Assembly: GCA_017475785.1 (NCBI GenBank)
Contig: JAFVEX010000055.1
Coordinates: 1-16,423, forward strand
Length of the DNA: 16,423 nt
Direction: 5' to 3'
Source of the DNA: Eubacterium sp.
Lineage (GTDB): Bacteria > Bacillota_A > Clostridia > Lachnospirales > Lachnospiraceae
Shown here: one piece after another, positions 392 through 13,328 of the stretch
Layout of the letters: every line of letters starts with the position of its first letter
How positions within the stretch are numbered: position 1 is the first letter of the stretch
The notes under the pieces: model-generated
What the model saw: only the letters and a program-made list of their open reading frames with translations
Told to the model about the DNA's origin: nothing
The model's database searches: none
Translations under genes and position numbers: made by a program

Positions 392-400
392 TTTCAGATT

Positions 401-826
401 TTACTTTTTCTCTTTCTGCTCCAGAAATGCTTCGATCTGCTCAACATACGTTTTCGTTTCTGCTTCCATATAGCCACAATGCGCGTAACCGGGGCGGATC
501 ACAAGTTCTGCCTTAGGCAACATGTTCACCAGGTTTGGTGAGGCCTCCACCCGGGTCTTTGCCAATGACTTTTTCCGGGCTCGGAACAGTCTTTTCATAA
601 ACCACTCTGCGAATCCTGCATTCTTACTCAGAGCAACCCCATCGAACCAGGCGCAATGGACCTCAAATGCAGGATCCATGAAGAGTCTCCAGCCCAGGGC
701 CACGCCAAGGGACGCCGCATAAACGAAAGCAACCGTATGGATCCCCTTATCAGAAAGCCACGCCTTAAGCTGTCTGTATTCTTCATCCGCACCTTTATAA
801 TTTCCGACTTTGCCATCCCCCGGCAA
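401..826 (-). pseudogene. Alpha/beta-hydrolase remnant, N-terminally truncated and probably internally deleted
   Basis: The frame encodes up to 141 residues but its only upstream start is a TTG without a ribosome site. The translation resembles the C-terminal half of a clostridial alpha/beta-hydrolase. The nucleophile elbow is YAASLGVALG (Ser39), followed by a conserved HCAWFDGVAL strand, and the catalytic-histidine loop is VIRPGYAHCGYM (His116). Whole members have roughly 80-100 residues before the nucleophile; here there are 38. Only about 76 residues separate Ser from His, against about 150 normally, and no segment able to carry the acid residue is visible between NLVNM and LPKAEL. The open frame extends past the TTG back to a TGA inside a duplicated mgtC tail. 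I infer a decayed gene. Confidence 0.6.
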
Positions 827-851
827 TTCTTCCTGCGAAGCTACACGCCTG

Positions 852-958
852 CCGGTTATTACTTCATCACCTCAGGATGCAAAACATACGCAGTACTGAC
901 GGGCGTATTCTGCCGGCGGAACCGGTTATTATTTCAATTATTTCATCGCCTCAAGATG
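852..958. repeat. Imperfect direct repeat: second copy of the mgtC 3' end
   Basis: Two related segments lie at about 922-958 (the true end of the MgtC-type gene) and 852-879. On the minus strand, 21 bases covering the last codons and stop (938-958 and 859-879) differ at only three positions. They encode YVSHLEAMK-stop and YVLHPEVMK-stop respectively. CCGGTTATT follows both. The differences sit in codon positions, suggesting a diverged remnant of a second MgtC-like gene rather than a fresh duplication. Confidence 0.55.
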
Positions 959-1663
959 TGAGACGTACTCCAGCGAGCGCATCGCCTCAATGATCTCCGC
1001 GTGGGTCTTGAACCGCTTCAGCTCCGGATTTCTGATGCTCAGCGAAACCGTGTACACACTGAGTCCGGAGTGCAGATAAGCCGGATTAAATTCAATCTCA
1101 TCGATGTGCATGCCCAGCTGCCGCACGGTCGCCACAAACTGCTTCAGATCCCCCGCGCTGTTCAGCTCCAGATGCACCTCGAAGAAATTGGAGCGGTCCT
1201 TGAGATAATCCTCGGTCCGCGGAAGCAGCGACAGGCAGATCATCATGATGATCGTCACGATGATAGCCGCCGTATAGAACCCGATGCCTATGGAAAGTCC
1301 CATGATGCCGCAGGTCCAGAGTCCCGCAGAGGTTGTCAGTCCCTTGATCTGGTTGCGGGAACTGAACAGAATCGTATAGACGCTGATGGTCGAGGCGCCC
1401 AGAACGACCGCCGCCGAGATAATCGGAATCGATGCGCCCTTCGTTTCCATCAGCCAGGCGTCCACCATCGCCGCCGAGGTAGCCGCCATGGAAACAAGGA
1501 TAAATGTGCGGAGACCGGCTGCATGACGCTTACTTGACCGCTCCCAGCCGATCAGTGCCGCGAGAATCACCGAGAGAAGCACGCGAAGCAGAATTGTGCG
1601 TCCGTTAATACCATAGGACCACGAGCCCAGAAAACCTGCAATCAGATCATGTCCGTTTATCAT
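938..1663 (-). CDS. MgtC/SapB family inner-membrane protein
   Basis: A 241-residue product with an N-terminal membrane domain of four or five helices (about residues 8-150) and a C-terminal soluble domain (about 155-241) of the ACT-like type found in this family. Hallmarks are GWER (39-42), AGLRTFILV (49-57) and GLTTSAGLW (108-116), the conserved signature blocks of MgtC. Length and architecture are typical of full members. MgtC proteins act in magnesium or phosphate homeostasis and modulate the F-type ATPase in pathogens; the role in Clostridia is not established. The start is supported by GGGAGGTAGGG just before the ATG. The gene lies 21 bases after the antiporter stop, so the two are almost certainly one transcript, which suggests a shared ionic-stress function. 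Confidence 0.9.
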   Translation of the reverse strand: MINGHDLIAGFLGSWSYGINGRTILLRVLLSVILAALIGWERSSKRHAAGLRTFILVSMAATSAAMVDAWLMETKGASIPIISAAVVLGASTISVYTILFSSRNQIKGLTTSAGLWTCGIMGLSIGIGFYTAAIIVTIIMMICLSLLPRTEDYLKDRSNFFEVHLELNSAGDLKQFVATVRQLGMHIDEIEFNPAYLHSGLSVYTVSLSIRNPELKRFKTHAEIIEAMRSLEYVSHLEAMK

Positions 1664-1684
1664 CCCTACCTCCCTTTCTTTTCT

Positions 1685-3178
1685 CTACCAGTTTACGCGG
1701 TTCCCGCCGCACCTGCGGGCGATCAGGCTGTCCCGCTGCGCCGTGCCGTACAGTGCCGCCAGCTGTTCCTCCGCCGCATCGAGAAATGCCTGTTCCTCCG
1801 GCGAAGTATCCTGCTGCTGCCGGTTTACCTCCTCCTGAATCTTCCCGATCCGCTCAATCAGAAGCTCCGCCTCCGTCTTCCGGTGTCCATCGGCAGTGGT
1901 CTCCTCCGCCTCCACGAGATCCTCCAGCTTGTCAGAGTAGGAACCCGAGAGATACAGTGAAGCCTTCGCGCACGCGGGACCGACCAGCTCGTAAAGCACG
2001 CTGCTCGCCAGAATAATGGTCTGCAGCGCCTCTCCGGTCTTTCCGCCCAGTGTCCGGGCACCCAGCATCGCGAGTCCGATCGCGACGCCCGCCTGCGGGA
2101 TCAGCGCGAGGCCGAGATAATTGCGCACAGATGCGGGTTTTCCCACAAACGCGCATCCGAACCAGGTACCAATATACTTGCCCGCGATCCGGACGATAAA
2201 GTAGACCACGCCGACCGTCAACAGCGAGACACTTCCGATCTCGCTGGAGGTATTGACGAGCGCGCTTAAATTGAAAGAGACGCCGGATCTGACAAAAAAC
2301 AGCAGCAAAATCGGCGGTGTAAAGTAATTCAGCTGCATAAACAGCCGGTCATCGTCAGATACGTTGATATAAACCATTCCCATGGACATGCACCCGAGCA
2401 GCGGCGACACATCCAGAATCGCGCAGATACCGCAGAATGCAAACAGCATGGCGATGGAAATGATCAGCCGGTTATCCGTCGACCGACCCTTCGGCATCAT
2501 CCATTTCATAAGCAGGCCGAAAAAGCCGCCGAGCGCAAGCACACAGATGTTGATCACGATGGGCTTCAGTACGCTTTCGACGCTGAAGCCCGCTCCGCGT
2601 CCGACCGCCAGCGCCACGGAGATCGCGATGCTGTACAGCACCAGTCCGACCACGTCGTCCAGCGCGACGACCTGCAGCAGCGTATTGACAAAGTCACCCT
2701 TTGCACCCGTCTGCCGGATCGTCATCATGGTAGATGCCGGAGCCGTTGCGGACGCGAGCGCGGCCAGCACAATCGAGAAGGGCAGGTTGATCCGCAGAAC
2801 AAAAAACGTGACGATAAATACAAACACCGACGCTAGGCACGACTCCATCAGTGTAATGATAATGACCTTCGGTCCGTTTTTCCGGATCGTCTCCAGCCTG
2901 AAAAATTCCCCCGTGCTGAAGGCGATAAACGCGAGCGCGATATCCGAGAGAAACGACATGCCATCCACAATCCCGGCCGGTATCAGATTCAGGCAGTACG
3001 GCCCGATCAGGATACCCGTGACGATATACGCCGTGACATTCGGCAGCTTCAGCCGCTTCGTCACGCGCGTCATCAGGAACCCCAGAAACAGCATAGCAGT
3101 GATGGAAAGGATCACACTGGCCACCTGACCGTTTTCGGCCATTCTGGAAAACATCTGCTCGATCAGAGATTCACTCAC
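1685..3178 (-). CDS. CPA2-type cation:proton antiporter
   Basis: A 497-residue protein with about 12 hydrophobic segments over residues 15-415 and a hydrophilic, Glu/Gln-rich tail (about 420-497). SATAPAST (143-150) and ALDDVVG (172-178, with the transport aspartates) are the paired motifs of the discontinuous helices in Na+/H+ and K+/H+ exchangers (KefB/NapA type). It should exchange Na+ or K+ for protons across the inner membrane; ion specificity is not visible. There is no TrkA-N domain. A GTG six codons upstream keeps the frame open, but AAAGGAGGAG (3184-3193) sits between the two GTGs, 5-6 bases before the one at 3178, so the internal GTG is the start. The gene is followed closely by the mgtC-like gene. 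Confidence 0.9.
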   Translation of the reverse strand: MSESLIEQMFSRMAENGQVASVILSITAMLFLGFLMTRVTKRLKLPNVTAYIVTGILIGPYCLNLIPAGIVDGMSFLSDIALAFIAFSTGEFFRLETIRKNGPKVIIITLMESCLASVFVFIVTFFVLRINLPFSIVLAALASATAPASTMMTIRQTGAKGDFVNTLLQVVALDDVVGLVLYSIAISVALAVGRGAGFSVESVLKPIVINICVLALGGFFGLLMKWMMPKGRSTDNRLIISIAMLFAFCGICAILDVSPLLGCMSMGMVYINVSDDDRLFMQLNYFTPPILLLFFVRSGVSFNLSALVNTSSEIGSVSLLTVGVVYFIVRIAGKYIGTWFGCAFVGKPASVRNYLGLALIPQAGVAIGLAMLGARTLGGKTGEALQTIILASSVLYELVGPACAKASLYLSGSYSDKLEDLVEAEETTADGHRKTEAELLIERIGKIQEEVNRQQQDTSPEEQAFLDAAEEQLAALYGTAQRDSLIARRCGGNRVNW

Positions 3179-3244
3179 GGCTTCTCCTCCTTTCACACCA
3201 TGCTGCCGCCTAATCGATCAGCCGGCATGTTCTAATATTCGTTC

Positions 3245-3272
3245 ATTGTAGTAAATTTCAGAAAAAAGGCAA
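3245..3272 (-). promoter_or_regulatory. Predicted sigma-A promoter for the antiporter-mgtC operon
   Basis: On the minus strand TTGCCT (3267-3272) and TACAAT (3245-3250) are separated by 16 bases, about 67 bases ahead of the GTG start. The position, downstream of the PfkB gene stop, would let the ion-transport pair be transcribed separately from the transporter operon. No convincing hairpin terminator was seen between the two operons, so read-through is possible. Confidence 0.5.
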
Positions 3273-3280
3273 CCGAGCAG

Positions 3281-4186
3281 CTAAAAATTATCACTTTTCA
3301 TAAGATTCTGCATATCCTCCTTCATACGCGCGCGGATTTCCCTCTCACCGCTTCGCAGCGGACCCGGCTTTTCCATTTTCATGGATACTGCAGCGGTCGC
3401 AAAGCCGAGTGCATCTTCCGGTTCCTCTCCTTTGAGCCTTCTGGCAAGATAGGATGCAAACACTGTGTCGCCCCTGCCGGTTCTGCCGGACAGATTCCGC
3501 GCGGTTACAGGCTTACTGTGAAAATGCGTTCCATCATATACCAGCATTTCCGCATGATTGGAGATCAGGATCTCCTTTGCGCCCCAGGAATGCATGATCC
3601 GGGCCGCCTCTTCCCTGTCCGCTGTCCCGGTCAGGATCTCCGCCTCCGCCGTATCGGCCTTCAGTACATCCAGATATGGAAGATATTCCTTCTTCCCGGT
3701 CCAGTCCTGAAACAGCATGCTGCCGTTCTGATTGTGCCGCAGGAATCCCTGCAGATCAGCGGATACGGTTCCGCGCTGCTTCAGATAGGGAATCATTGTC
3801 TCCTGAAAATCACCGTACAGGAGTCCTGCAAGATGATAGTGTCTGCAGTCAACCTGCGGAATCTCTTCCGGCGAGATCGGATCAGACTGCACGACACACT
3901 CCGTTTTTCTTCTCTCCCGATCAGCCGTAAAATAGGTGTTTCTCATCCGGGTAGTCTCTGCGGACGGAAGCAGAAAGAAATGGTCATCATCCAGTTCAAA
4001 AGCGCGCTGCATATCCGTGTCCTGCCCGCTGCATTTCACCGCAGCACACACATCTGCACCGCTGCAGGCGGCGGCAAAGACACCAAAAAAGGCGGCGCCT
4101 CCGATTTCCCTCACTACTTCGCCCGAAAAATCGATATTCTCATCTCTGGTTGCCGGTCCGATCAGCATCAGATCATAGCACTTCAT
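3281..4186 (-). CDS. PfkB-family carbohydrate kinase
   Basis: A 301-residue protein of ribokinase/PfkB size. The N-terminal lid/substrate region has an IGGAAFF glycine pair (about 28-34). The C-terminal PfkB signature is LSGRTGRGDTVFASYL with the catalytic base Asp240. The family phosphorylates a sugar, polyol or nucleoside hydroxyl with ATP in the cytosol; the substrate here is unknown. A longer frame reaches 4225, but AGGAGG and GAGGAGGAAATGC directly before the ATG at 4186 fix the start. That start overlaps the last 14 bases of the PHP gene, so translation is probably coupled. As the last gene of the transporter operon it would phosphorylate a dephosphorylated import product, or a sugar released by the phosphoesterases. 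It is fairly divergent from named kinases. Confidence 0.85.
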   Translation of the reverse strand: MKCYDLMLIGPATRDENIDFSGEVVREIGGAAFFGVFAAACSGADVCAAVKCSGQDTDMQRAFELDDDHFFLLPSAETTRMRNTYFTADRERRKTECVVQSDPISPEEIPQVDCRHYHLAGLLYGDFQETMIPYLKQRGTVSADLQGFLRHNQNGSMLFQDWTGKKEYLPYLDVLKADTAEAEILTGTADREEAARIMHSWGAKEILISNHAEMLVYDGTHFHSKPVTARNLSGRTGRGDTVFASYLARRLKGEEPEDALGFATAAVSMKMEKPGPLRSGEREIRARMKEDMQNLMKSDNF

Positions 4187-4874
4187 GCATTTCCTCCTCC
4201 GGAACAGCCAGTTGATACTGCCCACTCCTGATCATATCTGCAAATTCAAATCCGTCTTCCGGAAGCTCCTCGGCGACAATCCCTGCTGTACCCTCGTCTC
4301 CCGGCCTGTGAAAATCCGAGCCTGCCAGCATCAGCAGCCGATGCTCCTTCGCGTAACACAGAGCCAGTTCATTGTAATTTTCGTGGCGCGGATTGCAGTT
4401 GCACACCTCCATGCCGTCCAGCAGTTCCGCCGGCGCCGGCACGCAGTTTTTCCGATACGGGTGCGCCTGAATCAAAAGCGCTCCGTCTTCACGGCACGCC
4501 CGGCAGAAGGCTGCGAGCCCTCCGCGCATGACCTGCTCCGGGTCTGCCAGCAGGTCATGATGAAACCCAAACAGCAGATAGTCGTTCTCCGAACCGTCAA
4601 AACGTACTTCCGCGCCTTCATATACCCGGATCCCGTTTTCCTCCGCTTCGCGCTTCAGAAAGCGGTATCCGCGCAAAAAATCCTCTGTCTTGCTGCCCGG
4701 CGCATGCAGATTGATGCCTGCGTAATCAAAACAGGTCCGGTTATAGTGATCCGTTACACAGAGCGCGGAATACCCACGCTCCCTGTAAAGGCTGATAATG
4801 CCCTCTGCGCCCATCCAGCCGCAGCGGGAAATATACGTGGTGTGAAGATGTGGTTCGATCAAGAATTTTCCCAT
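4173..4874 (-). CDS. PHP-domain metal-dependent phosphoesterase
   Basis: A 233-residue protein with the full set of PHP metal-binding motifs: EPHLHT (His9, His11), VTDHYN (Asp42, His43), YEGAEVRF (Glu86, Glu89), FGFHHD, LIQAHPYR (His138) and AGSDFHRP (Asp187, His189). The length suits stand-alone PHP enzymes (YciV and the cyclic-phosphate dihydrolases), which hydrolyse phosphomonoesters or cyclic/diester phosphates with two or three metal ions. There is no signal peptide, so it is cytosolic. An upstream in-frame GTG lies inside the ATPase gene. The ATG at 4874, preceded by GGTGAG and 8 bases after the ATPase stop, is preferred. Overlap with the kinase gene and linkage to the importer suggest it cleaves the imported compound. 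Confidence 0.87.
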   Translation of the reverse strand: MGKFLIEPHLHTTYISRCGWMGAEGIISLYRERGYSALCVTDHYNRTCFDYAGINLHAPGSKTEDFLRGYRFLKREAEENGIRVYEGAEVRFDGSENDYLLFGFHHDLLADPEQVMRGGLAAFCRACREDGALLIQAHPYRKNCVPAPAELLDGMEVCNCNPRHENYNELALCYAKEHRLLMLAGSDFHRPGDEGTAGIVAEELPEDGFEFADMIRSGQYQLAVPEEEMHEVL

Positions 4875-4882
4875 GTTTTTTC

Positions 4883-6004
4883 TCACCGAAGAACACGCAC
4901 GCACTTTTCAATGAAGGTGACAGATACTTCCTGTCCCTCCTGAAACCGCTCAGTAAGCTGCGGGTTGTAGACCTCGACGATAATCGGCTGTTCGTGCAGC
5001 ATAATCTCATACTCAATCTTCGTGCCATAGTAGACCGCCCGCGTAATGCTGCCCCTGAAATGTCCTTCCTTCGCAGACAGCGTTACAGATTCCGGGCGAA
5101 CCGACAGACAGCACGGGCCGTTGATTTCGACGTCCTGCATCTCCCCGGGAGCCGGGATCTCGAGCGTTCTGCCATTCACTTCCACAAGTGCGCCCGCTCC
5201 CTTTTTCCCGAGGAATTTTCCTTCAACAAAGTTTGCCTTGCCGATGAAGTTCGCGACAAAGCGGGACGCCGGTTGCTCGTATATCTCCGTCGGACTCCCC
5301 TGCTGCATGATGTGGCCGTCCTTCATGATCACGACCTTGTCAGAGATGGCCATCGCCTCCGACTGATCGTGCGTGACATACAGCGAGGTGATGCCAAGGC
5401 GCTTCTGCAGGGCCCGGAGCTCATCGCGCATGCTCTCTCTGAGCTTTGCGTCCAGATTCGACAGCGGCTCGTCAAACAGCAGTACGCTGGGCTCAATTAC
5501 AACGGCGCGGGCGAGCGCCACACGCTGCTGCTGGCCGCCGGAAAGCTGATTCGGAAAGCGCTGCTCCATTCCCTTGAGCTGCATCATCTCTACCACATTT
5601 CGCGTCCGCTCGATGATCTCATCGCGCGGCAGGTTTTCCACGCGCAGACCATATGCGATATTTTCAAAAATATTCATGTGCGGAAACAGCGCGTAGCTCT
5701 GGAACACCATCGAAATCCCGCGTTTGTTCGGCGGAATTTTCGCGACGTCCCGGTCTCCGATCATGATGTTTCCGCTGGACGGATACTCAAATCCCGAAAT
5801 CATGCGAAGGGTGGTCGTTTTGCCGCAGCCGGAAGGGCCGAGCAGCGTTACCATCTCTCCGTCATTGATGTTTAAATTGATGTGATCGACTGCCACAAAA
5901 TCCTTGCCCGTGTCAGGCTGCTGAAAAATCTTGGTGACTTCTTTTAAGACGACGCCCGAGCTCTTCTTGCCCAGCTGCGCGTTTGCATTCATTTCCCGGC
6001 TCAT
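4883..6004 (-). CDS. ABC importer ATPase (AfuC/FbpC/PotA class)
   Basis: A 373-residue ATPase with Walker A GPSGCGKT (56-63), Q-loop Gln102, signature LSGGQQQR (154-161), Walker B VLLFDEP (174-180), D-loop SNLDAK and H-loop THDQ (His212). A C-terminal TOBE-type regulatory domain follows (about 280-373, with the block LSVRPESVTL). The length is typical of the spermidine/iron/sugar-phosphate importer ATPases. It powers the fused permease encoded just upstream; the two genes overlap by four bases (ATGA). GGAGGAAAG precedes the ATG. Sequence alone does not give the substrate; the binding protein and neighbours point to a phosphorylated compound. Confidence 0.93.
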   Translation of the reverse strand: MSREMNANAQLGKKSSGVVLKEVTKIFQQPDTGKDFVAVDHINLNINDGEMVTLLGPSGCGKTTTLRMISGFEYPSSGNIMIGDRDVAKIPPNKRGISMVFQSYALFPHMNIFENIAYGLRVENLPRDEIIERTRNVVEMMQLKGMEQRFPNQLSGGQQQRVALARAVVIEPSVLLFDEPLSNLDAKLRESMRDELRALQKRLGITSLYVTHDQSEAMAISDKVVIMKDGHIMQQGSPTEIYEQPASRFVANFIGKANFVEGKFLGKKGAGALVEVNGRTLEIPAPGEMQDVEINGPCCLSVRPESVTLSAKEGHFRGSITRAVYYGTKIEYEIMLHEQPIIVEVYNPQLTERFQEGQEVSVTFIEKCVRVLR

Positions 6005-7737
6005 TTTCTTTCCTCCGTATTTGACTTCAGTTCTTCGGGTACCCTGGAGCGCGGCGCCAGGAGCTTGTTGATCAGCGTATTGAACAGCCCGATGAATACC
6101 AGCAGGATCAGCACCATCATCGTGACGAACGCAGCCGCCTGCGAGTATTTCGCCTGATCAAAGAGCGTATAAATCTTGCTTGTGACAAGATTCCACCTCG
6201 GCGATACGAGGAAAATCACCGCGCTGACAGCCGTAATCGCACGTACAAACGAGTAGACGATACCGGAGTAAAACGCATTGCGAAGCATCGGCAGCGTAAT
6301 CCTGCGGAAGGAATAACCCGTGTCCGCGCCGAGGATCGTCGACGCCTCCTCGATCGAATTGTCGATCTGCAGCAGCGTTGTCGTACCGGATTCGATCGCA
6401 ACCGGCATATTTCGGAATACAAATACGATAACCAGGACGGTTGCCGTTCCGGTCAGTACCAGCGGCTTCGTATTGAAGCCGAGGACGTAGGAAATACCGA
6501 GCACGGTTCCGGGTACCGCGAACATCAGGACAGACGCCACTTCGATAAACGTCTTTCCGTAGTAGTTCCGCTTTGCGGTAATATAGGCGATCACCATACC
6601 GAGCAGCCCGCCCACAAATGCCGAGATCAGACCAAGCAGTACCGAATTGCGAAGGGAAGACCATCCATACGCCAGCGCTTTCTTATACTGATCAAACGTC
6701 AGGGCGTAATTGTATCCCCAGGTTGACACAAAGGAACCGTAAACCACCGTTCCGTACAGAAGAATTGTGATCAGACCGATCAGCAGACAGAACACGAACA
6801 GCGGGTATTTGATATGCGGTTCGTCAATCAGCTTTCTTGCCTGCGTCGGCTTTCCCGTAACGGTCACGAAGCTCTTCTTTCCGACCCAGTATTTATTCAG
6901 CAGGTACGCGATCACTGCCGGCAACAGCAGCAGAATTGCCAGCACGGAGCCCTTTCTCATATCATAGCTTCCCGTAATGGTCTTATAAATCTCCACGGAC
7001 AGCGTTCTGAAATCGCCGCCGATCGTCGCAGGATTTGAGAAATCCTCCAGAGACTGGATAAAGACCAGCAGACAGCCCGAGATAATGCCCGGCAGTGACA
7101 GCGGAAATGTCACTGTCCAGAAGGTGCGCCATCTGCCTGCGCCCATGTTGCAGGCGGCGTCCTCAACCGAGGCGTCTATCGACTCCAGGATTCCGGAGAG
7201 TGTGAGGTACGCGATCGGGAAAAATGAAATCACCTGAACGATGATCAGGCTGGGCATCCCGTACACGTTATTGTCCGTGATCCCCATAAGTCCCTTCGTA
7301 ATGATGCCCTGCTTTCCGAACAGGAAAATAATGGAGAGGGACAGAATAAACGGCGGAGACAAAATCGGCAGGGTCGCGATGATCCGCAGCAGTTTTTTGC
7401 ACGGTGCGTTTGTGCGCGTAATCGTGTAGGCAAAAATGTAGCCGATGAAGGTCGCGATCACCGCGACAATCAGGCCCAGCAGCAGGGTTCTTCCCATAAC
7501 GGCCAGGTAATTTGCATTTGTAACGATTGCGACGAGATTCGCAGCGGAGACATGTCCGCTTTCATCCGTCAATCCAAAGACCAGCACCTTGACGAGCGGG
7601 TAAATCACAAACAGAAGCAGCAGTGCAATCACTGCAATAATTGCAACCAACAGAATCGGCTGCCGCATAATCATTCTGGTCTCATTCCGCTTTTTCATGC
7701 GGGCGGCAGTATGACCTTTTGCGCCGGGATTCGCCAT
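6001..7737 (-). CDS. Fused double-domain ABC permease (AfuB/FbpB type)
   Basis: A 578-residue inner-membrane protein made of two homologous permease halves. Each has about six helices and one EAA loop that docks the ATPase: VEDAACNMGAGRWRTFWTV (about 191-209) and EEASTILGADTGYSFRRITL (about 463-482). A hydrophilic linker around 285-310 joins them. Fused permeases of this size are characteristic of the AfuB/FbpB group, whose transporters carry ferric ion, hexose phosphates or aminoethylphosphonate. A near-perfect AAGGAGGT precedes the ATG at 7737. The gene follows the binding-protein gene after an 80-base gap containing a GC-rich hairpin and overlaps the ATPase gene by four bases. The N-terminus is basic without a cleavable signal. 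Confidence 0.92.
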   Translation of the reverse strand: MANPGAKGHTAARMKKRNETRMIMRQPILLVAIIAVIALLLLFVIYPLVKVLVFGLTDESGHVSAANLVAIVTNANYLAVMGRTLLLGLIVAVIATFIGYIFAYTITRTNAPCKKLLRIIATLPILSPPFILSLSIIFLFGKQGIITKGLMGITDNNVYGMPSLIIVQVISFFPIAYLTLSGILESIDASVEDAACNMGAGRWRTFWTVTFPLSLPGIISGCLLVFIQSLEDFSNPATIGGDFRTLSVEIYKTITGSYDMRKGSVLAILLLLPAVIAYLLNKYWVGKKSFVTVTGKPTQARKLIDEPHIKYPLFVFCLLIGLITILLYGTVVYGSFVSTWGYNYALTFDQYKKALAYGWSSLRNSVLLGLISAFVGGLLGMVIAYITAKRNYYGKTFIEVASVLMFAVPGTVLGISYVLGFNTKPLVLTGTATVLVIVFVFRNMPVAIESGTTTLLQIDNSIEEASTILGADTGYSFRRITLPMLRNAFYSGIVYSFVRAITAVSAVIFLVSPRWNLVTSKIYTLFDQAKYSQAAAFVTMMVLILLVFIGLFNTLINKLLAPRSRVPEELKSNTEERK

Positions 7738-7759
7738 AAACTTACCTCCTTATCGGACC

Positions 7760-7786
7760 GTCCCCGCCCCGGAGGGGGGAGGGGAC
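7760..7786 (-). promoter_or_regulatory. GC-rich intergenic hairpin between binding protein and permease
   Basis: GTCCCC (7760-7765) pairs with GGGGAC (7781-7786), and CCCC (7767-7770) with GGGG (7776-7779). This gives a stem of about 11 positions with one G-A mismatch and a five-base loop. On the transcribed (minus) strand it is not followed by a T-run, so it is not a complete intrinsic terminator. Such hairpins after binding-protein genes commonly stabilise the upstream message or cause partial termination, raising binding-protein levels over permease. Confidence 0.65.
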
Positions 7787-7817
7787 AGATCCTTGAAGTC
7801 TCAATGCGGGATTCTGA

Positions 7818-8948
7818 TTATTCCGCAGGTGCTTCTGCCAGTGTCGATTCAAATTCTGCGGTCAGTTCTTCTTTGTTTTCAGCTGCCCAGACAGCGTCGT
7901 AGTCAATTACACTGACTTTATCCAGCGTGACGAGCCCGTCTGCGACGACAGCGTCTGTATTGGTCGGAACACGGAAGGAGTCATTCTCCGCATAGAGGTT
8001 CTGCCCCTCTGTTGAACACATCCAGTCGATGAATTTCTTTGCATTCTCCTGCTCTTCGGCCGGTCCGTTCTTAATGAGCGCGGTTGCTCCAACTTCGTAT
8101 CCTGTGCCATCCTCCGGGAAGGAGAGATCGATCGGGTATCCCTCCGCTGTCGGCTGCAGACCGTCATGTGAGAAGGTCAGCGCGATCGCGGATTCTCCGA
8201 GTGCGACTGCATTCGGCGCCGCGGAACCGGACTGCGTGTACTGGGTGATGTTCTTGTCGAGTTTTTCCAGATACGACCAGACATTGTCCTTGCCCATCAT
8301 CTGCACCAGTGTTGCGAGCACGGTATAAGCGGTACCGGATGTGGACGGATGCGCCATAATGATCTGATCCTGATATTTCTCATCCGGCAGGTCCTCCCAG
8401 CTGGTCGGGTAATCGTAGCCTTTTTCAGCGAACCAGTCACGGTTGCATGCAAATGCGATGCACCCGACATAGATCGGATCCCATACGCCATCCGGATCGA
8501 TGAAGCGCTCCGGTGTTGAGGAGAGTGACGGGGACTGATACGGCTCGAGAAGTCCCTGATTTGCAGCCGCGATATAGTTATCGGTGGAGCCGCCGAGCAT
8601 CAGAGACGCCTGCGGATTTTCCTTCTCCGCCGCGACACGTGTCAGCATTTCACCTGCCGACAGTCGGATGTAATTCACTTCAATTCCGGTCTCTTCACTG
8701 AATTTGTTGATATAGTAAACGACCTCTGCCTCCGGGAAGGCGGTGTAAATGGTCAGGCTCCTGCTGCTCTTCACTTCTCCCTCCGAAGCCTTCTCCGCTT
8801 CCGGTGCAGCTGAAGACGCAGACGCAGCCTTGCTGTCGGATGCCGCCCTGCTTCCCGCATCACCGGATCCTCCGCAGCCGCTTAACAGACCGACTGTAAG
8901 TCCTGCCGTAAGAAAAAGTGCTGCAATTTTCTTCATCGTCTTTTTCAT
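7818..8948 (-). CDS. ABC transporter substrate-binding lipoprotein, AfuA-like
   Basis: A 376-residue extracytoplasmic binding protein. It starts with a lipoprotein signal (MKKTMKKIAAL... with lipobox LLSGC, Cys25), then an Ala/Ser/Glu-rich linker (26-60), then the binding domain from LTIYTAFPEAE. The family is the one annotated 'ferric iron-binding' (COG1840). However, the adjacent ferric-ligand tyrosines expected near the domain interface are absent. Instead ALTFSHD (His261, Asp262) is followed 23 residues on by Glu285, a spacing that matches my memory of AfuA His205, Asp206 and Glu229, which hold glucose-6-phosphate. A Ser/Thr-rich STSGTAYT loop (about 202-209) could hold a phosphate. I infer an organophosphate ligand. 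A weak AAGGGG lies upstream of the ATG. The EEP gene ends 35 bases before it. Confidence 0.88.
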   Translation of the reverse strand: MKKTMKKIAALFLTAGLTVGLLSGCGGSGDAGSRAASDSKAASASSAAPEAEKASEGEVKSSRSLTIYTAFPEAEVVYYINKFSEETGIEVNYIRLSAGEMLTRVAAEKENPQASLMLGGSTDNYIAAANQGLLEPYQSPSLSSTPERFIDPDGVWDPIYVGCIAFACNRDWFAEKGYDYPTSWEDLPDEKYQDQIIMAHPSTSGTAYTVLATLVQMMGKDNVWSYLEKLDKNITQYTQSGSAAPNAVALGESAIALTFSHDGLQPTAEGYPIDLSFPEDGTGYEVGATALIKNGPAEEQENAKKFIDWMCSTEGQNLYAENDSFRVPTNTDAVVADGLVTLDKVSVIDYDAVWAAENKEELTAEFESTLAEAPAE

Positions 8949-8983
8949 CTCTACTGTTCCCCTTTCTCAATGTTTACAAGTTT

Positions 8984-10129
8984 TTATACAGCAAAATCTT
9001 TCTGATTAGAACGATCAGCCTCTGTGCATGCAGCCCACACTGCGTTGTGATCGGAGAGCTCCTCATCGGCAAACGAGCACAGCGCGCTTCCCGGCTTTGC
9101 AAATCCGAAATCCGCGCGGCGCGTGGAAATCATGCGGCTCTCCTTTACATCCATGCCTCTCGCCATAATCCAGTCGAGTCTGAGCCCGAGCACATCGCCG
9201 CCCGGAAGCGGTTTGCGCCGCGTCAGAACCGGCCGGTCAGGAACACATTTGTATCCTCTGTGCTCTGCGTCAGTCAGAAGCGGCTCGTTTTGAAACACAT
9301 CCTCCAGACATTGCCTGCGAAGCGTCTGATCTGCCGCGATCACACCGATGTCCTCCACAGAACGGCCGTCAAATGTATTTGTATTCAGATCCCCGCCGAG
9401 GATGACGGGCATCTCTTTAAAAAATTCATCCGCGGCATCCAACACCGTCTTCATCTGCATCCGTCTGCCGGCAGCGTCCGTTCTGTTTTCCAGGTGCATC
9501 ACGCCGACGCCGATATGCCGGCCCCTGCCGTCTTCGATTTCCGCAAGAATTGCACATCTGCCGCCGATCCGCGTCTGCCTGTCAAAATACCAGTTGTAAG
9601 CCTCCGGAAGCCTGACAACCCTTGCCCGTCTGAACGGCCATCTGGAGAAAATCGCGTTTCCGTGAAACCCCTTCGGATCCGCTTCATTCGCCAGCTCAAT
9701 AAATTCCAGCGCATAGACGTAATTCAGGCCCAGTGCCTTTGCGAGCTCTGCCGTCGTATCCAGTCCGCCGGAACGGACACATCCGTCATCAAGCTCATTC
9801 GCAAGAATAATGTCAAACGGTGATACATCCGGACAGTCCCGCAGAAAATCGCGGATGGCCTCGAGATGAACACCGCGCTCCATATTGAAGACCAGGATGC
9901 CGCAGTCATCGGAACGGGCTCGTTCCTCCTGCGCGGTTTGCTGTACATCCGGAGACAGATTGTGGATCTGTGCTTCTGCGAACTGCGGAATCAGCCGCAT
10001 CACTGATTCCTGCGATTCGATTTTCAGCCGTTCACCAAACTCCTTTCTGCTCTCACTCGAAAGCGTGTCCATTTTCTGTTTCTCTCTTTCTATTTCTTTT
10101 GTATGCATACGGTTATCGGATAAGTTCAT
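8984..10129 (-). CDS. Endonuclease/exonuclease/phosphatase (EEP) superfamily hydrolase
   Basis: Up to 381 residues. The EEP fold begins near residue 76 and shows every active-site block: LVFNME (Asn82), LANELD (metal-binding Glu112), HGNAIFSRWP (156-165), VMHLEN (His212), GGDLNTN (Asp247, Asn249), LDWIMA (Asp319) and LSDHNAVW (Asp360, His361). Family members cleave phosphodiester or phosphomonoester bonds in nucleic acids, inositol phosphates or phospholipids. There is no signal peptide, so it is probably cytosolic, acting on imported material. The N-terminal 70 residues are charged and helical and have no family match I know. The start is uncertain: the ATG at 10129 overlaps a possible -10 box and has no ribosome site; ATGs at 10108 or 10072 are alternatives, the latter after AGAAAGAG. 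First gene of the transporter operon. Confidence 0.85.
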   Translation of the reverse strand: MNLSDNRMHTKEIEREKQKMDTLSSESRKEFGERLKIESQESVMRLIPQFAEAQIHNLSPDVQQTAQEERARSDDCGILVFNMERGVHLEAIRDFLRDCPDVSPFDIILANELDDGCVRSGGLDTTAELAKALGLNYVYALEFIELANEADPKGFHGNAIFSRWPFRRARVVRLPEAYNWYFDRQTRIGGRCAILAEIEDGRGRHIGVGVMHLENRTDAAGRRMQMKTVLDAADEFFKEMPVILGGDLNTNTFDGRSVEDIGVIAADQTLRRQCLEDVFQNEPLLTDAEHRGYKCVPDRPVLTRRKPLPGGDVLGLRLDWIMARGMDVKESRMISTRRADFGFAKPGSALCSFADEELSDHNAVWAACTEADRSNQKDFAV

Positions 10130-10172
10130 TATACACTTAAATCGAATTATATTCCATTGTTAATATATACAA
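10128..10172 (-). promoter_or_regulatory. Predicted promoter region of the EEP-transporter operon
   Basis: Two TATAAT boxes are present on the minus strand, at 10146-10151 and 10128-10133. The first can pair with a weak TTGTAT (10167-10172, 15-base spacer). The second has only poor -35 candidates and overlaps the most upstream ATG, which would exclude that ATG if this box is used. An ATTCCAT half-site (10151-10157 on the plus strand) touches the first -10 box, a position suited to repression. Confidence 0.45.
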
Positions 10173-10219
10173 ATGAATATTATTCTTTTTTGTGCAGAAT
10201 GCACAGGTCTATTCGAAAC

Positions 10220-10289
10220 ATTATTCCATCAGCGTCACATCCCCGCCATGGACCGCAATTGGATCGCAATTGGATTGCAATGGAATAAT
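10220..10289. promoter_or_regulatory. Candidate RpiR operator: inverted ATTATTCCAT ... ATGGAATAAT
   Basis: ATTATTCCAT (10220-10229) and its exact reverse complement ATGGAATAAT (10280-10289) lie 60 bases apart centre to centre in the regulator-operon gap. A third related site, TATATTCCAT, is at 10148-10157 beside the operon's -10 box. The placement between divergent genes and the repetition make it a good candidate for binding by the RpiR dimer. The assignment to RpiR is inference. Confidence 0.5.
10254..10286 (+). repeat. Three tandem 11-base repeats, CGCAATTGGAT type
   Basis: The units are CGCAATTGGAT (10254-10264), CGCAATTGGAT (10265-10275) and TGCAATGGAAT (10276-10286). The first two are identical and the third differs at three or four positions. 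The period is about one helical turn, so equal binding faces would line up. The array lies 33 bases before the regulator's -10 box and merges into the ATGGAATAAT arm of the inverted repeat. Confidence 0.7.
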
Positions 10290-10318
10290 CTCCCGCAGTA
10301 GCGGCATTCGGACGGACA

Positions 10319-10327
10319 TGTTATAAT
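10319..10327 (+). promoter_or_regulatory. Extended -10 promoter element of the RpiR-family gene
   Basis: TG-T-TATAAT forms a consensus extended -10 box, 26 bases ahead of the chosen ATG. There is no good -35 at the standard distance, which extended -10 promoters tolerate. The 11-base repeats lie just upstream. Confidence 0.6.
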
Positions 10328-10353
10328 AATTCATGATTCAGGAGGTGCTCACA

Positions 10354-11214
10354 ATGACGCAGAATACCAATCCGTATGCATCAATTCAATCTCAATACGC
10401 AGGCTTTTCCAGAGTCAGCAGGAAAATCGCCGACTTCATCTTAAAGGATCCTACGCACTGTTCTTCGATCAGCGTCCAGCAGATGGCCGCTGAGTTAAAT
10501 ATCGCAGAATCGAGTATTATTCGATTTTCGAAATCAATCGGGTGTGCGGGCTTTACGGACATGAAGCTGATGCTGGCGAAGTTCTCGCCTCTCTCGGTGC
10601 GGACAATTTTTGAAGACCTTGATCAGAATGATCCGGTTGAGGCCATCACCAGAAATGTGTTTTCCAGAAACATCGATACGCTGCAGCGCGCGCAGGAGCT
10701 TCTGGATTTTGACCGGCTACAGGAGGCCGTTGAGTTGATGAGCCGCGCTTCCTGCATTACCGTACTCGGCATCGGGGCGTCCGGTACCATCGCGGATGAT
10801 TTTTATATTCGGCTGATGCGCGTGGGGATGCGGGCCGTTTCGCTGACAGATTCGCACCTGATGCAGATTGCCGCCCGCCAGGCGGGTCCTGAAGACGTGT
10901 ATCTGGCAATTACGCATACGGGGAAGACGCAGGAGATTCTGCGCGCGCTGAAACACGTGAGAGACCACGGTGGTCACACGATCAGCATAACCGGCTATCC
11001 GAACACGCCCGTGAAGGAGCTCTCAGACTTCTGTCTGGAACTCTATTCCCCGGAGCAGCTGTTTGTCTCGCCGCGCGTCGCACAGTTTTCACTGCTTGAC
11101 AGCCTGTACGTCTGTCTGACCATTCGCAAAGAGAAGGAAGTCACGGAAAATATCCAGGGCATGAATGCGGTTCTGGAACCGTTTCGGATCAATGATTTGC
11201 AGGAACTGGTCTGA
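10354..11214 (+). CDS. RpiR-family (MurR/RpiR, SIS-domain) transcriptional regulator
   Basis: A 286-residue regulator. The N-terminal HTH_6 domain (about 1-77) contains a clear helix-turn-helix, SVQQMAAELNIAESSIIRFS. The C-terminal sugar-isomerase (SIS) domain (about 125-255) has VLGIGASG (137-144) and AITHTGKTQE (185-194), the loops that bind phosphosugars in this family. RpiR proteins repress or activate sugar-phosphate and amino-sugar genes in response to a phosphorylated ligand. The frame is open from 10333, but AGGAGGTG (10340-10347) lies between that ATG and the one at 10354, fixing the start at 10354. It is divergent from the EEP-transporter operon, with repeated candidate operators between, so it very probably controls that operon and itself. 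Confidence 0.92.
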   Translation: MTQNTNPYASIQSQYAGFSRVSRKIADFILKDPTHCSSISVQQMAAELNIAESSIIRFSKSIGCAGFTDMKLMLAKFSPLSVRTIFEDLDQNDPVEAITRNVFSRNIDTLQRAQELLDFDRLQEAVELMSRASCITVLGIGASGTIADDFYIRLMRVGMRAVSLTDSHLMQIAARQAGPEDVYLAITHTGKTQEILRALKHVRDHGGHTISITGYPNTPVKELSDFCLELYSPEQLFVSPRVAQFSLLDSLYVCLTIRKEKEVTENIQGMNAVLEPFRINDLQELV

Positions 11215-11277
11215 CTTTCGCATCGTTCGTCTTCTCACAAAAAGGTTGTATCGATTTGATGCTTAACTACGTCTGTT

Positions 11278-11622
11278 TTATATATGCAAAAAACAGGCCC
11301 CGGCACCGCTGTTATATTCTCCTTTCAGCGCCTGGCCTTTATTGGTGCAGGCACGGCTGCAGTATTTCCTCACCCGGGTATTCTCACGTGCGGCAAAGAA
11401 CACCTCGCCGCAGACCGGGCAGATATGTTTTTCAAAAGAGCTCCACCCTTCCGCATTCGGATGCGCCTTCCAGAACTTCCGCCTGCACTCATCCGAGCAG
11501 AACTTCCGGGGCTGCCCGATCACAGAGTGCTTCCGGTCGATCCGGATCTCCTTTCCGCACTGCGGGCAGAAGCGGATGGCACACTTGGCGACGAACTCCT
11601 TCATGTCGGTTTCAATGAGCAT
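11278..11622 (-). CDS. Small protein with two zinc-finger modules
   Basis: A 114-residue protein with two copies of a C-x2-C ... C-x3-C zinc module: Cys19/Cys22/Cys42/Cys46 and Cys68/Cys71/Cys88/Cys92. The second pair of each lies in a CSxxC-type turn after Arg-Lys-Phe/Tyr (RKFCSDEC, RKYCSRAC), as in treble-clef fingers. The spacing and Trp/basic patches (RRKFWKAHP) suggest nucleic-acid or protein binding. Similar proteins are common beside mobile elements in Clostridia and are often loosely annotated; the function is unknown. The frame extends to 11787, but AAAGGAGGG just before the ATG at 11622 fixes the start, and the upstream part crosses a terminator-like hairpin. It converges on the RpiR gene. 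Confidence 0.75.
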   Translation of the reverse strand: MLIETDMKEFVAKCAIRFCPQCGKEIRIDRKHSVIGQPRKFCSDECRRKFWKAHPNAEGWSSFEKHICPVCGEVFFAARENTRVRKYCSRACTNKGQALKGEYNSGAGACFLHI

Positions 11623-11689
11623 CCGATCCCTCCTTTCCATGCGGGATGAAACCCCCACTTTACGGCAAGATTCCGTTAAAAAACAGCAC

Positions 11690-11724
11690 AAAAAAGCAGA
11701 GGCGGTTTTTGCCCCTGCCGCTGC
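11690..11724 (-). terminator. Predicted intrinsic terminator, minus strand
   Basis: On the minus strand GCAG-C-GGC ... GCC-T-CTGC forms an imperfect stem (11696-11724) with a purine-rich loop, followed at once by six T residues (11690-11695). It would end transcripts coming from the sigma-factor operon and the decayed fragments before the zinc-finger gene. Confidence 0.5.
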
Positions 11725-11762
11725 ACTGTAAGTGGTAAACTTAATTCCGTGAATTGGTAAAA

Positions 11763-11885
11763 GTACTTGCCGTTTACAAGCAGACACTGGATTTTTCCAA
11801 GTTGGTGCCGCACGGCTTTGGAACCGGCGACTGCGTGATCGTAGCAGATGACCTGCTGCACATCGTCGATTTCAAATACGGCGTT
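11763..11885 (+). pseudogene. Fragment of a DUF2800 phage protein (PD-(D/E)XK nuclease-like)
   Basis: The plus strand encodes about 40 residues including LDFSKLVPHGFGTGDC, then VIVADDLLHIVDFKYG. This is the conserved core of the DUF2800 proteins found in Firmicute prophages, where GTGD and DFK are the likely nuclease motif. Whole members have about 370-400 residues; nothing recognisable remains on either side. The homology stops at about 11882, where the opposite-strand DUF1016 fragment begins. The surrounding frame (11754-11939) opens with TTG and has no ribosome site. Dead prophage debris. Confidence 0.7.
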
Positions 11886-11979
11886 TCTCATTCACAGAAC
11901 GTGCGGCATCATACTGGCTCTGCAGGATTGCGGTCTTAATCAATTCTACGGCCTGTCTATAGTCGTTTTTGTCTCCCAT
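11872..11979 (-). pseudogene. N-terminal fragment of a DUF1016 (YhcG/PDDEXK) nuclease-family gene
   Basis: From the ATG at 11979 the minus strand encodes 35 residues, MGDKNDYRQAVELIKTAILQ then SQYDAARSVNEK, followed by a stop in unrelated sequence. The pattern (aromatic, then I-K-x-x-I-L-x-x-Q-Y-x-A-A-R-x-V-N) is the first helical segment of the DUF1016 N-terminal domain, which normally continues into a 'YYGIGKYI'-type block. That block is missing because the homology ends where DUF2800 sequence starts. The original start codon seems kept. The intact family has about 330-380 residues and is common next to restriction systems and on mobile elements. Confidence 0.65.
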
Positions 11980-12134
11980 CGATATGGGAGATTCGAGGGG
12001 ACTCCTTCAGGCAAATCCGTTCTGACATCGTCTCCGAATACTTCCTGGATCATCGGAAAGGTGCTCCAAGCCTTCGGCCAGCCGCAGTAAAAGGCAAGTT
12101 GCGTTACGATCTCGATTGCTTCCGCCTTCGTACC
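11946..12134 (-). pseudogene. Carboxymuconolactone decarboxylase-family gene, C-terminal fragment
   Basis: The minus strand encodes GTKAEAIEIVTQLAFYCGWP then KAWSTFPMIQEVFGDD, a close match to the conserved C-terminal helix pair of carboxymuconolactone decarboxylase/AhpD-like proteins ('EEIIEVVTQLAFYAGWPxAW'). The catalytic Cys-x-x-Cys/His part upstream is absent. The fragment has no start codon of its own. At 12104-12134 it overlaps, in another frame, the last codons of the small membrane-protein gene, so the two are joined at a recombination point. The stop is TAG at 11946-11948. Confidence 0.65.
11973..11990. repeat. Perfect 7-bp inverted repeat, CTCCCAT-CGAT-ATGGGAG
   Basis: The palindrome sits where the carboxymuconolactone-decarboxylase fragment and the start of the DUF1016 fragment meet; the ATG of the latter lies inside it. 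It may mark a rearrangement joint or be a leftover regulatory hairpin. Confidence 0.5.
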
Positions 12135-12403
12135 AGCACTCCGAGACAGAAAGCCAACAACGCGACCACTACATATCCAAGCGACGCATGATCGGCAAAG
12201 ATACTGGCAGCAGCGTTTCCGGTGATCTCACCGGGTGACTGGATCGGCAGTGACGCAATGACCAGTGCCATCGCAATGGTGATCGCAAGACACGTCGTAC
12301 AGGCAGCGGCACACATTAGCTGGTACCTGCGTCGGTTCTTCGCTTTTTCCATGGCATTCATGCGGCGATGCAATTCCTGAACGCGTTCCTCAGATGTCCG
12401 CAT
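12104..12403 (-). CDS. Small two-helix membrane protein, putative sigma-factor partner
   Basis: A 99-residue protein with a basic, helical cytoplasmic N-terminus (about 1-27, MRTSEERVQELHRRMNAMEK then AKNRRR) and hydrophobic helices at about 28-51 and 73-91. The linker between them contains SIFADHASLGY, and the tail is basic (RRRKQSRS). The start overlaps the last 14 bases of the sigma-factor gene, implying translational coupling. A short membrane protein encoded right after an ECF-type sigma factor is often its anti-sigma factor; here that is inference, since no zinc-binding anti-sigma motif (HxxxCxxC) is present. The last codons coincide with another frame of the decarboxylase fragment, so the natural C-terminus may have been replaced. 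Confidence 0.7.
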   Translation of the reverse strand: MRTSEERVQELHRRMNAMEKAKNRRRYQLMCAAACTTCLAITIAMALVIASLPIQSPGEITGNAAASIFADHASLGYVVVALLAFCLGVLVRRRKQSRS

Positions 12404-12935
12404 GTGTGATCCCCTCCTTTTCCAACTCCAGCCTCAGGCGGTTCCTTCCGTTGCTCAATAAATTGTCTATCTTCTTTTTCGTGCAGCCCATGACAGCAGC
12501 GGCCTGTTCATAGCTCAGATCCACATAGTAGAACAGCCAGAGCGCCTCCCGGTACTGCGGAGCGATGCGGTTCAGGCACCGCTGCAGGATGGCACTGCGT
12601 TCGCTCTGCCAGAGGGTGTCCTCAGGTGAGCCGCCCTGCATCGGCAGGTCCTCGTTCAGGCTGAATTCCTGCTGCCGGAACCGCAGCTTCCATAGATGAT
12701 TTGCCTTATTCCGAGCCATCTTGAACAGGTAATCCCGAAAATGCCCCTCACCGATCATAGGTCTGTCCACCAGAATGACGGTAAAGCAGTCCAACATCAA
12801 ATCTTCCGCATCATGCGCGTTGTGAAGGAAGGCATCCAGATAGGCCGTAAGCGCATCAGCATAGCGTAACATCAGTTCGTCGCCTGCTGACTGATCGCCA
12901 GCCAGATATTGTTGGTACAATTGATCGTCTGACAC
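12390..12935 (-). CDS. ECF-like sigma-70 family RNA polymerase sigma factor
   Basis: A 181-residue protein with region 2 at about 8-83 (AEDLMLDCFTVIL and HFRDYLFKMARNKANHLWK) and region 4 at about 115-172 (IAPQYREALWLFYYVDLS, then YEQAAAVMGCTKKKIDNLLS). There is no region 3, as expected for ECF sigma factors. It should direct RNA polymerase to a small set of promoters; targets cannot be predicted. The start is GTG at 12935, supported by AAGGAGGAGAGG. It overlaps the small membrane-protein gene by 14 bases. No strong promoter is visible in the 65 bases just upstream, where a terminator-like hairpin lies, so control by attenuation or read-through is possible. Confidence 0.87.
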   Translation of the reverse strand: MSDDQLYQQYLAGDQSAGDELMLRYADALTAYLDAFLHNAHDAEDLMLDCFTVILVDRPMIGEGHFRDYLFKMARNKANHLWKLRFRQQEFSLNEDLPMQGGSPEDTLWQSERSAILQRCLNRIAPQYREALWLFYYVDLSYEQAAAVMGCTKKKIDNLLSNGRNRLRLELEKEGITHADI

Positions 12936-13001
12936 AGCCTCTCCTCCTTCCTTTCATATAATCCTGCTTTTTAAGTCACCATGTATTCGGATCAGCAAAC
13001 A

Positions 13002-13049
13002 CAAAAAGCGCGCCATGGCCCAATATTATTCATGGGCGCATGACGCGCT
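13002..13049 (-). terminator. Hairpin terminator or attenuator ahead of the sigma gene
   Basis: AGCGCG-C-CATG-G-CCC (13007-13021) pairs with GGG-CG-CATG-A-CGCGCT (13034-13049) around an AT-rich loop, with one mismatch and one bulge. On the minus strand the stem is followed by TTTTTGTG (complement of 13002-13007), fitting an intrinsic terminator in that direction. It lies 67 bases before the sigma-factor start. It could end transcription from the AlbA_2 genes or act as an attenuator for the sigma operon. Confidence 0.65.
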
Positions 13050-13236
13050 GCATTATCATGAAGATAGCAAAGACGAGTTGCGAAAAAGGGCAGACTTATC
13101 CTGTCTGTCTGTCTGACTGAGTCTGGCGGAGGTCAGCATACTTGTCAAGTCCTTTCCCGATTTTATTTGCTTTTTTAATCCGGCGGTTTATGCGGAGGCA
13201 GGGTTCAGCATAACGGATCTCTTGATACAGTCATTT

Positions 13237-13328
13237 GCGTCCAAAAAAGCGGCCACTCACATAATTGCGTTCAGAAAAGCGTTCAGTTTTTGCTCTAGCG
13301 TTCACAAAGCGTTCAAAAAGCGGCCACT
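13237..13328 (+). repeat. Cluster of GCGTTCA repeats within a 14-base direct repeat
   Basis: GCGTTCA occurs at 13267-13273, 13279-13285, 13298-13304 and 13309-13315, and the variant GCGTCCA at 13237-13243. AAAAAGCGGCCACT occurs twice, at 13244-13257 and 13315-13328, each directly after an outer heptamer, so the outer 20-21 bases form a long imperfect direct repeat. The right copy abuts the read-through stop codon of the neighbouring pseudogene. Its function is unknown; it could be a protein-binding array, or slippage products of a coding repeat. Confidence 0.65.

Follow-up and report, generated by a model that had tools for sequence, protein, structure and literature searches.

A candidate organophosphate uptake-and-breakdown operon with a predicted pyrophosphate-linked inositol-type kinase in Eubacterium sp.

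Gene content of the locus

A stretch of 16,423 nucleotides from Eubacterium sp. (Lachnospiraceae; contig JAFVEX010000055.1, positions 1 to 16,423), analysed at its full length and called the window below, contains a gene for an RpiR/MurR-type regulator that is divergent from six genes on the minus strand, which encode, in this order, a metal-dependent phosphohydrolase of the EEP superfamily, a solute-binding protein, a fused permease, an ATPase, a PHP-family phosphoesterase and a PfkB-family kinase (Table 1). The six genes probably form an operon for the uptake and breakdown of an organophosphate, and chances are even that the compound is an inositol phosphate or the phosphate of another cyclitol, handled by a kinase that is predicted to be linked to pyrophosphate (PPi). 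The source bacterium has relatives in animal guts.

The first-pass annotation, made from the letters alone, had placed these seven genes at the same coordinates and on the same strands, with overlaps of 4 bases between the permease and ATPase genes (6001–6004) and of 14 bases between the PHP and PfkB genes (4173–4186). Both the genes and the overlaps were confirmed, each of the seven products scoring above the gathering threshold of its principal Pfam family. Likely starts lie at 10072 for EEP (an ATG; Met20 of the longer open reading frame, or ORF, is invariant in 29 aligned sequences, and the database copy of the protein has 362 residues), at 4871 for PHP, at 4186 for PfkB and at 10354 for RpiR, the last being preceded by the Shine–Dalgarno sequence AGGAGGTG at 10340–10347.

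Table 1. Features of the window, with positions counted from its first nucleotide
Feature	Positions	Strand	Basis and remarks
RpiR/MurR-type regulator	10354..11214	+	HTH_6 + SIS; start chosen by eye from Shine–Dalgarno
Three tandem 11-base repeats TGGAYYGCAAT	10249..10281		Divergent intergenic region; candidate operator, role inferred
EEP-superfamily metal-dependent phosphohydrolase	8984..10072	-	Exo_endo_phos; ORF open to 10129
AfuA-like solute-binding protein	7818..8948	-	SBP_bac_6; AfuA triad H261, D262, E285
G+C-rich hairpin in the binding-protein/permease gap	7738..7817	-	z -1.5; 16/200 shuffles fold equally well
Fused double permease (PhnU2/AfuB-like)	6001..7737	-	578 aa; BPD_transp_1 in two stretches
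ABC ATPase	4883..6004	-	ABC_tran + TOBE_2
PHP-family metal-dependent phosphoesterase	4173..4871	-	PF02811; metal-ligand pattern invariant in 17 sequences
PfkB-family kinase, TM0415 (PPi-dependent myo-inositol kinase) type	3281..4186	-	PF00294; best solved relatives and residues
Na+/H+ exchanger family protein	1685..3196	-	84 bases 3' of PfkB; possible operon extension
MgtC-family membrane protein	938..1663	-	21 bases 3' of exchanger; possible operon extension

The importer

The solved structures closest to the binding protein are, in this order, entries 8x1a, 4r72 (AfuA, E-value 7e-51) and 6wce (P5PA, E-value 6e-46) of the Protein Data Bank (PDB). AfuA belongs to the AfuABC importer of Actinobacillus, which takes up cyclic hexose and heptose phosphates, and requires His205, Asp206 and Glu229 to bind sugar phosphates, Ser37 and Thr150 touching the phosphate (PMC4546632). 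When these positions are mapped onto the window protein through its alignment with solved relatives, the triad corresponds to H261, D262 and E285 and Thr150 to T206, all four being kept in the 11 window-type binding proteins (window included), whereas the Ser37 position holds Ala in 11/11, with a Ser one residue earlier. A further difference from AfuABC is that EEP, PHP and a PPi-type kinase are encoded together with the window importer in one operon. P5PA, described as a pyridoxal-5-phosphate (PLP) binding protein (PMC8427247), is the third-best solved relative, but it has Ala at the positions of Asp206 and Glu229, where the window protein keeps Asp and Glu. Among the solved homologues, many bear iron-binding names.

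The nearest NCBIfam models are PhnS2 for the binding protein (score 219.1, curated cut-off 392.75), PhnU2 for the permease (341.2, cut-off 593.25) and the ferric model PRK11432 for the ATPase (394, cut-off 496), with PhnT2 in third place for the latter (368.2, cut-off 457.7). All these scores lie below the cut-offs, including those that define the 2-aminoethylphosphonate (AEP) importer PhnS2/T2/U2. The uptake of an organophosphate, as suggested in the first-pass annotation, is supported by the kept AfuA triad and by the rank of AfuA as second-best solved relative, and a phosphorylated polyol is a likelier ligand than a phosphonate, PLP or iron.

The kinase

The best solved relatives of the PfkB-family protein are TM0415 of Thermotoga maritima (1vk4, 5ysp) and the near-identical chain 7e4l (E-values 3e-46 to 1e-44), the Thermococcus inositol kinase (3w4s, E-value 3e-5) and other sugar kinases being far behind. 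TM0415, located in an inositol catabolic cluster, takes its phosphate from PPi, not from ATP or ADP, and yields inositol 1-phosphate, Ins(1)P; its PPi contacts are K171, R229 and R232, the ATP cleft is closed off by F221 and M266, and RXGRGD has been proposed as a motif (PMC5931981).

In the window kinase, this motif reads R235-T-G-R238-G-D240, and K176 and M271 occupy the positions of K171 and M266. Across an alignment of 82 rows (the window protein and 81 relatives), K171, R229 and R232 are kept in 81, the remaining row (a short ORF) having a gap. At the F221 position the window kinase has Val (V227), and the 82 rows show Ile, Val or Leu in 78, Phe in two, Tyr in one and a gap in one; the pair of large hydrophobic residues that blocks the ATP cleft in TM0415 was thus not found, and four of the five residues of the PPi signature are present. 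The acceptor residues D11, N78, Q141 and R145 correspond to D15, N83, Q146 and R150 (D11, Q141 and R145 kept in 82/82 rows, N78 in 81/82), and L116 to L122, while M81 replaces I76 and T95 replaces S89.

From these residues, the protein is predicted to be a PPi-linked inositol-type phosphotransferase which appears to work like the TM0415 group; it is not called a proven member because the F221 position differs. The two enzymes also differ in genomic setting, an inositol catabolic cluster for TM0415 and the vicinity of an organophosphate importer here. The initial view of PfkB as a sugar kinase that rephosphorylates the product is probably incorrect, since the residues predict PPi in place of ATP as the donor and an inositol-type acceptor, with the reverse reaction being possible.

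The two hydrolases

The assignment of both hydrolases to phosphoester-cleaving superfamilies is supported. The EEP protein has the motifs expected on the EEP fold (catalytic Glu, Asp-x-Asn, Asp and Ser-Asp-His), and its fold matches include nocturnin (22.8), BT3783 (21.9), neutral sphingomyelinase (21.7) and TDP2 (21.6); because these scores are nearly equal, they do not separate a monoesterase from a diesterase. In the PHP protein, H8, H10, H42, E88, H137, D186 and H188, presumably the metal ligands, are invariant in 17 sequences. Its nearest solved relative is TM0559, and its fold matches are mainly uncharacterised proteins, RNases and polymerase domains. The reaction proposed for both enzymes would be the removal of phosphate.

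Linkage of the genes in other genomes

The search of reference genomes gave 53 loci with an EEP relative, several of these loci stopping at contig ends; neighbourhoods were derived from codon-scored gene calls, and neighbours were counted by BLAST comparison of ORFs with a reference set. The nearest EEP relatives come from metagenome-assembled genomes labelled Oscillibacter, Oscillospiraceae and Lachnospiraceae. Of the 53 loci, 27 contain importer genes no more than 7 kb from EEP, and these are of two types: six loci have the window type, with the same order of EEP, binding protein, permease and ATPase, whereas in the 21 others the importer is of a second type, in which the fused permease is distantly related (23–26% identity) and the binding protein matches SBP_bac_1 weakly and no NCBIfam model. 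The other neighbours are LacI (23 loci), HAD (19), PfkB (7), MgtC (5), glycerophosphodiester phosphodiesterase (GDPD; 3), RpiR (3) and PHP (2), and the labels HAD, LacI, GDPD and Na+/alanine symporter, given by eye, were upheld by a Pfam scan. The survey that the first-pass annotation had called for thus reveals linkage elsewhere, of parts and not of the whole: the full six-gene operon was found in none of the 53 other EEP loci, the genes being divided among clusters, and the divergent RpiR gene of the window gives way in EEP loci to the commoner LacI.

In some Oscillibacter-type loci (L006, L015, L022, L026 and L042), EEP stands away from any importer, and its neighbours resemble, by eye, phosphate acetyltransferase, M23 peptidase and polyphosphate kinase; in L006, a membrane pyrophosphatase is also nearby.

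For the kinase, 90 places were listed (21 and 65 from EEP genomes and four new ones from the class survey described below), of which 81 had their surroundings read, so that nine, together with two from a family search (also below), are left out of the neighbour counts. Within 6 kb of the kinase, the 81 loci contain LacI (38), PHP (36), HAD (32), MgtC (25), a circularly permuted iPGM-like protein (22), the second-type permease (8), the window-type binding protein (6) and EEP (6). At least one of EEP, PHP, HAD, permuted iPGM, MgtC, importer and GlpQ occurs within this distance in 61 loci and none in 20, LacI, RpiR and pyrophosphatase being excluded from the count; with the window-derived families alone (EEP, PHP, MgtC, binding protein and permease), the figure is 58 of 81. 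Control stretches from such genomes (20 asked, 19 returned, one piece of 590 bases dropped) numbered 18, measured 8–13 kb and contained no tested family except one RpiR. The association of the genes exceeds chance, because most parts recur beside other parts in related genomes while the controls are nearly empty.

Two layouts are typical of kinase loci. In one, LacI–PHP–PfkB faces three or four HAD genes and an iPGM-like gene, with IolG (inositol 2-dehydrogenase) in some cases; in the other, the order is HADs–iPGM–(MgtC)–PfkB, with PHP nearby. MgtC-family genes, of which the window has one, are recurrent beside the kinase (e.g. L109, L112, L114, L161 and L166), and a sodium:alanine symporter family gene, recognised by Pfam, occurs within 6 kb in 13 of the 81 loci (e.g. 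L192:7445–8872).

The iPGM-like proteins of these clusters (e.g. L157:10069–11637, L163:4476–6065 and L173:15148–16713) are circularly permuted, the C-terminal half coming first and the DGWG start motif lying near residue 292–329. The permutation holds for 20 of the 22 rows of full length, or 17 different genes when the three that were read twice are counted once, although for L166 the DGWG position alone was found; in the two remaining rows (L022 and L042, ~40% identical), the C-terminal motif lies at residue 456, which is the ordinary iPGM order. In the HAD proteins (e.g. L173:11974–15127), motif I reads D-x-G-x-T in 112 of 124 sequences, that is, in all those with a detected motif, and D-x-D-x-T with its acid/base Asp in none of the 112, some genes being counted from overlapping loci. 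Such a motif may point to phosphotransfer over plain hydrolysis.

Co-occurrence and the inositol link

With the kinase scored as present at E ≤1e-40, it was found in 51 of 53 EEP genomes, namely 12 of 13 chosen with neighbours in view and 39 of the 40 that constitute the remainder. Among 391 genomes from the class to which one carrier (G002) belongs, EEP occurs in one and the kinase in five, G002 having both; the comparison of 51/53 with 4/390 other class genomes gives extreme odds, which are inflated by shared ancestry. In the 120 genomes of the family of another carrier (G420), EEP occurs in one and the kinase in three (G420 having both), which means that some genomes have the kinase but no EEP. 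PHP relatives are present in 37 of the 40 EEP genomes and, at 1e-10, in 11 of the 13.

IolG scores above its curated cut-off in 32 of 53 EEP genomes versus 31 of 390 others of the class, and in three of the four class genomes that have the kinase without EEP. It lies within 10 kb of the kinase in nine loci versus 0.7 expected under uniform placement in 2.4-Mb genomes; the linked copies are 7.6–8.6 kb away from start to start, and none was found within 6 kb in the 81 loci. One carrier cluster has IolG followed by a split transketolase-like pair and an iron alcohol dehydrogenase-like gene, the last three below cut-offs.

Pyrophosphatases and the direction of the kinase reaction

Of the 81 kinase loci, five have a pyrophosphatase gene adjacent to that of the kinase. 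In two of them, a Na+-translocating pyrophosphatase lies between MgtC and the kinase (L163:6898–8886 and L165:6906–8894; proteins 94% identical), and in three (L072, L073 and L119) the enzyme is soluble. These neighbours hint that the kinase may run backwards and form PPi, because a pyrophosphatase fits a PPi-producing kinase and would waste the donor of a PPi-consuming one. The conversion of inositol phosphate and Pi into inositol and PPi was favourable in eight of nine computed cases, for which all inputs were assumed (standard free energy +6 to +12 kJ/mol, Pi 10 mM and PPi 10–100 µM).

Regulation and flanking genes

The divergent intergenic region comprises 281 bases and holds the three tandem repeats (Table 1), a candidate operator. 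The RpiR protein would probably sense a phosphorylated intermediate, and the hairpin between the binding-protein and permease genes could possibly raise expression of the binding protein. A promoter scan of positions 1–11800 gave no excess (seven found versus 8.6 expected), and terminator-like sites numbered 16 versus 10.2 expected, none being assigned to an operon boundary. No match appeared in an Rfam scan of the window at gathering thresholds, nor any tRNA in a tRNA scan.

The operon may run past position 3281 as far as MgtC, because PfkB is followed at small gaps by the co-oriented exchanger and MgtC genes and MgtC recurs beside such kinases elsewhere; the Na+/H+ exchanger is not a recurrent neighbour (0/81 kinase loci). 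On the other side of the operon lie a gene resembling sigma-70 (region 4) at 12390–12935 and two HATPase_c_4 genes, one with Schlafen/AlbA_2, at 13404–15971, with no evident tie to the operon.

Proposed function and alternative explanations

A role of the operon in organophosphate uptake and breakdown is judged likely, at a confidence lowered slightly because the second type of importer is distantly related to that of the window. In the scheme proposed, the AfuABC-like importer would take in the phosphorylated compound intact, EEP and PHP would strip phosphate in the cytosol, and the TM0415-type kinase would catalyse the reversible reaction of inositol and PPi to inositol phosphate and Pi; free inositol would then pass to inositol 2-dehydrogenase, encoded elsewhere in many such genomes. 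At sequence level, support comes from the genes present, from binding residues of the AfuA type, from kinase residues of the PPi and inositol types and from the linkage and co-occurrence of the genes; the operon of the window resembles a condensed form of a module whose parts are dispersed in related genomes. For inositol phosphate (or another phosphorylated cyclitol) as the substrate, the chances are put at about even.

Several observations weigh against this scheme. No importer was found within 7 kb in 26 of the 53 EEP loci (some at contig ends), and most EEP-linked importers (21/27) are of the second, distant type. The surveyed genomes are mostly related, and the counts are not independent events. 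PHP relatives are widespread, occurring in 103 of 391 class genomes (E ≤1e-20), and no other gene of the set was found within four genes of the 14 PHP genes inspected in EEP-less genomes. Among kinase loci with at least 5 kb on both sides, 7 of 42 show no listed neighbour. The window lacks IolG, and in 21 of 53 EEP genomes no copy exceeds the cut-off. As to the proteins themselves, the kinase deviates from TM0415 at the F221 position; the Km of TM0415 for inositol is 12 mM, and its authors suggest that the genuine acceptor may differ (PMC5931981). The ligands of AfuA are hexose and heptose phosphates, and the word 'inositol' is absent from the main text of the article describing it (PMC4546632).

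These ligands bring to mind the scavenging of hexose or heptose phosphates as by AfuABC, with import of glucose 6-phosphate, fructose 6-phosphate or sedoheptulose 7-phosphate, EEP and PHP as sugar phosphatases and the kinase as a salvage enzyme with a sugar acceptor. This is unlikely, given the inositol-type acceptor residues of the kinase and its co-occurrence with inositol 2-dehydrogenase; moreover, hexose phosphates, once imported, enter glycolysis without a phosphatase. Alternatively, a phosphodiester such as glycerophosphoinositol could be imported, EEP cutting the diester and PHP the monoester before the kinase handles inositol. The EEP fold includes diesterases (e.g. sphingomyelinase and TDP2), and a GDPD gene follows HAD in three of the 53 EEP loci; however, these three loci are near-identical in arrangement, phosphomonoesterases (nocturnin and BT3783) fit the EEP fold equally well and the linked hydrolases elsewhere are mostly HAD proteins, so that a diester substrate appears quite improbable.

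A different view of the kinase has it running forward and making Ins(1)P for such uses as inositol lipids or an osmolyte, the importer and phosphatases supplying inositol and phosphate. TM0415 does work forward in vitro (PMC5931981) and gut Bacteroidetes make inositol lipids (PMC9246714), but no lipid-synthesis gene was identified among the neighbours, in which no specific search for such genes was made, and the two kinds of pyrophosphatase beside the kinase would waste the PPi donor; little weight is given to this possibility. Similarly little is given to an importer for AEP, ferric iron or PLP next to a loosely linked set of enzymes. The nearest NCBIfam models, the iron-binding names of many solved homologues and the rank of P5PA speak for it, whereas all NCBIfam scores shown for the three importer proteins are below the curated cut-offs, P5PA has Ala where the window protein has Asp and Glu, and the linkage to phosphatase genes recurs. 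A phosphonate role, considered in view of the AEP models and of a PHP enzyme of the C–P lyase pathway that acts on a cyclic phosphate, was set aside, as the AEP-model scores do not reach their cut-offs and no phosphonate-cleaving gene was identified among the neighbours.

Within the inositol phosphate scheme, a bolder version can be formulated, in which gut anaerobes import inositol (poly)phosphates whole and use phosphorolysis as the last step, with conservation of energy. Inositol phosphate and Pi would yield inositol and PPi, and the latter would power PPi-linked metabolism or a pyrophosphatase that pumps sodium or protons. This version is speculative and, on present evidence, rather unlikely to be right.

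Relation to known systems and significance

Phytate and lower inositol phosphates are plentiful in plant diets. The route described for Mitsuokella and Anaerostipes also has gut anaerobes obtaining carbon and phosphate from inositol phosphates, but it relies on phytase, an inositol transporter (MJ_0380) and Pst phosphate uptake, and the available text of the two sources describes neither an importer of phosphorylated compounds nor a PPi kinase (PMC7618129, PMC12482443). A 2025 review regards the conversion of inositol to butyrate by gut bacteria such as Dysosmobacter as incompletely characterised (PMC12482443). In the CC-licensed PMC literature, searches on the gene set, on inositol-phosphate import and on PPi-dependent inositol kinases brought up no recognisable description of this system apart from TM0415. 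The parts are of known kinds, and the novelty would lie in their combination and in the PPi-linked step.

If the proposed scheme is true, inositol phosphates would be used in a new manner, by an importer together with phosphatases inside the cell and a PPi-linked inositol kinase, the TM0415 enzyme group would gain a physiological role, and importers often labelled 'iron' or 'aminoethylphosphonate' would become tied to inositol phosphates. If, in addition, the kinase runs in the PPi-forming direction, the cell would conserve some of the energy stored in the ester bonds of dietary inositol phosphates, energy that is lost when a secreted phytase acts on them.

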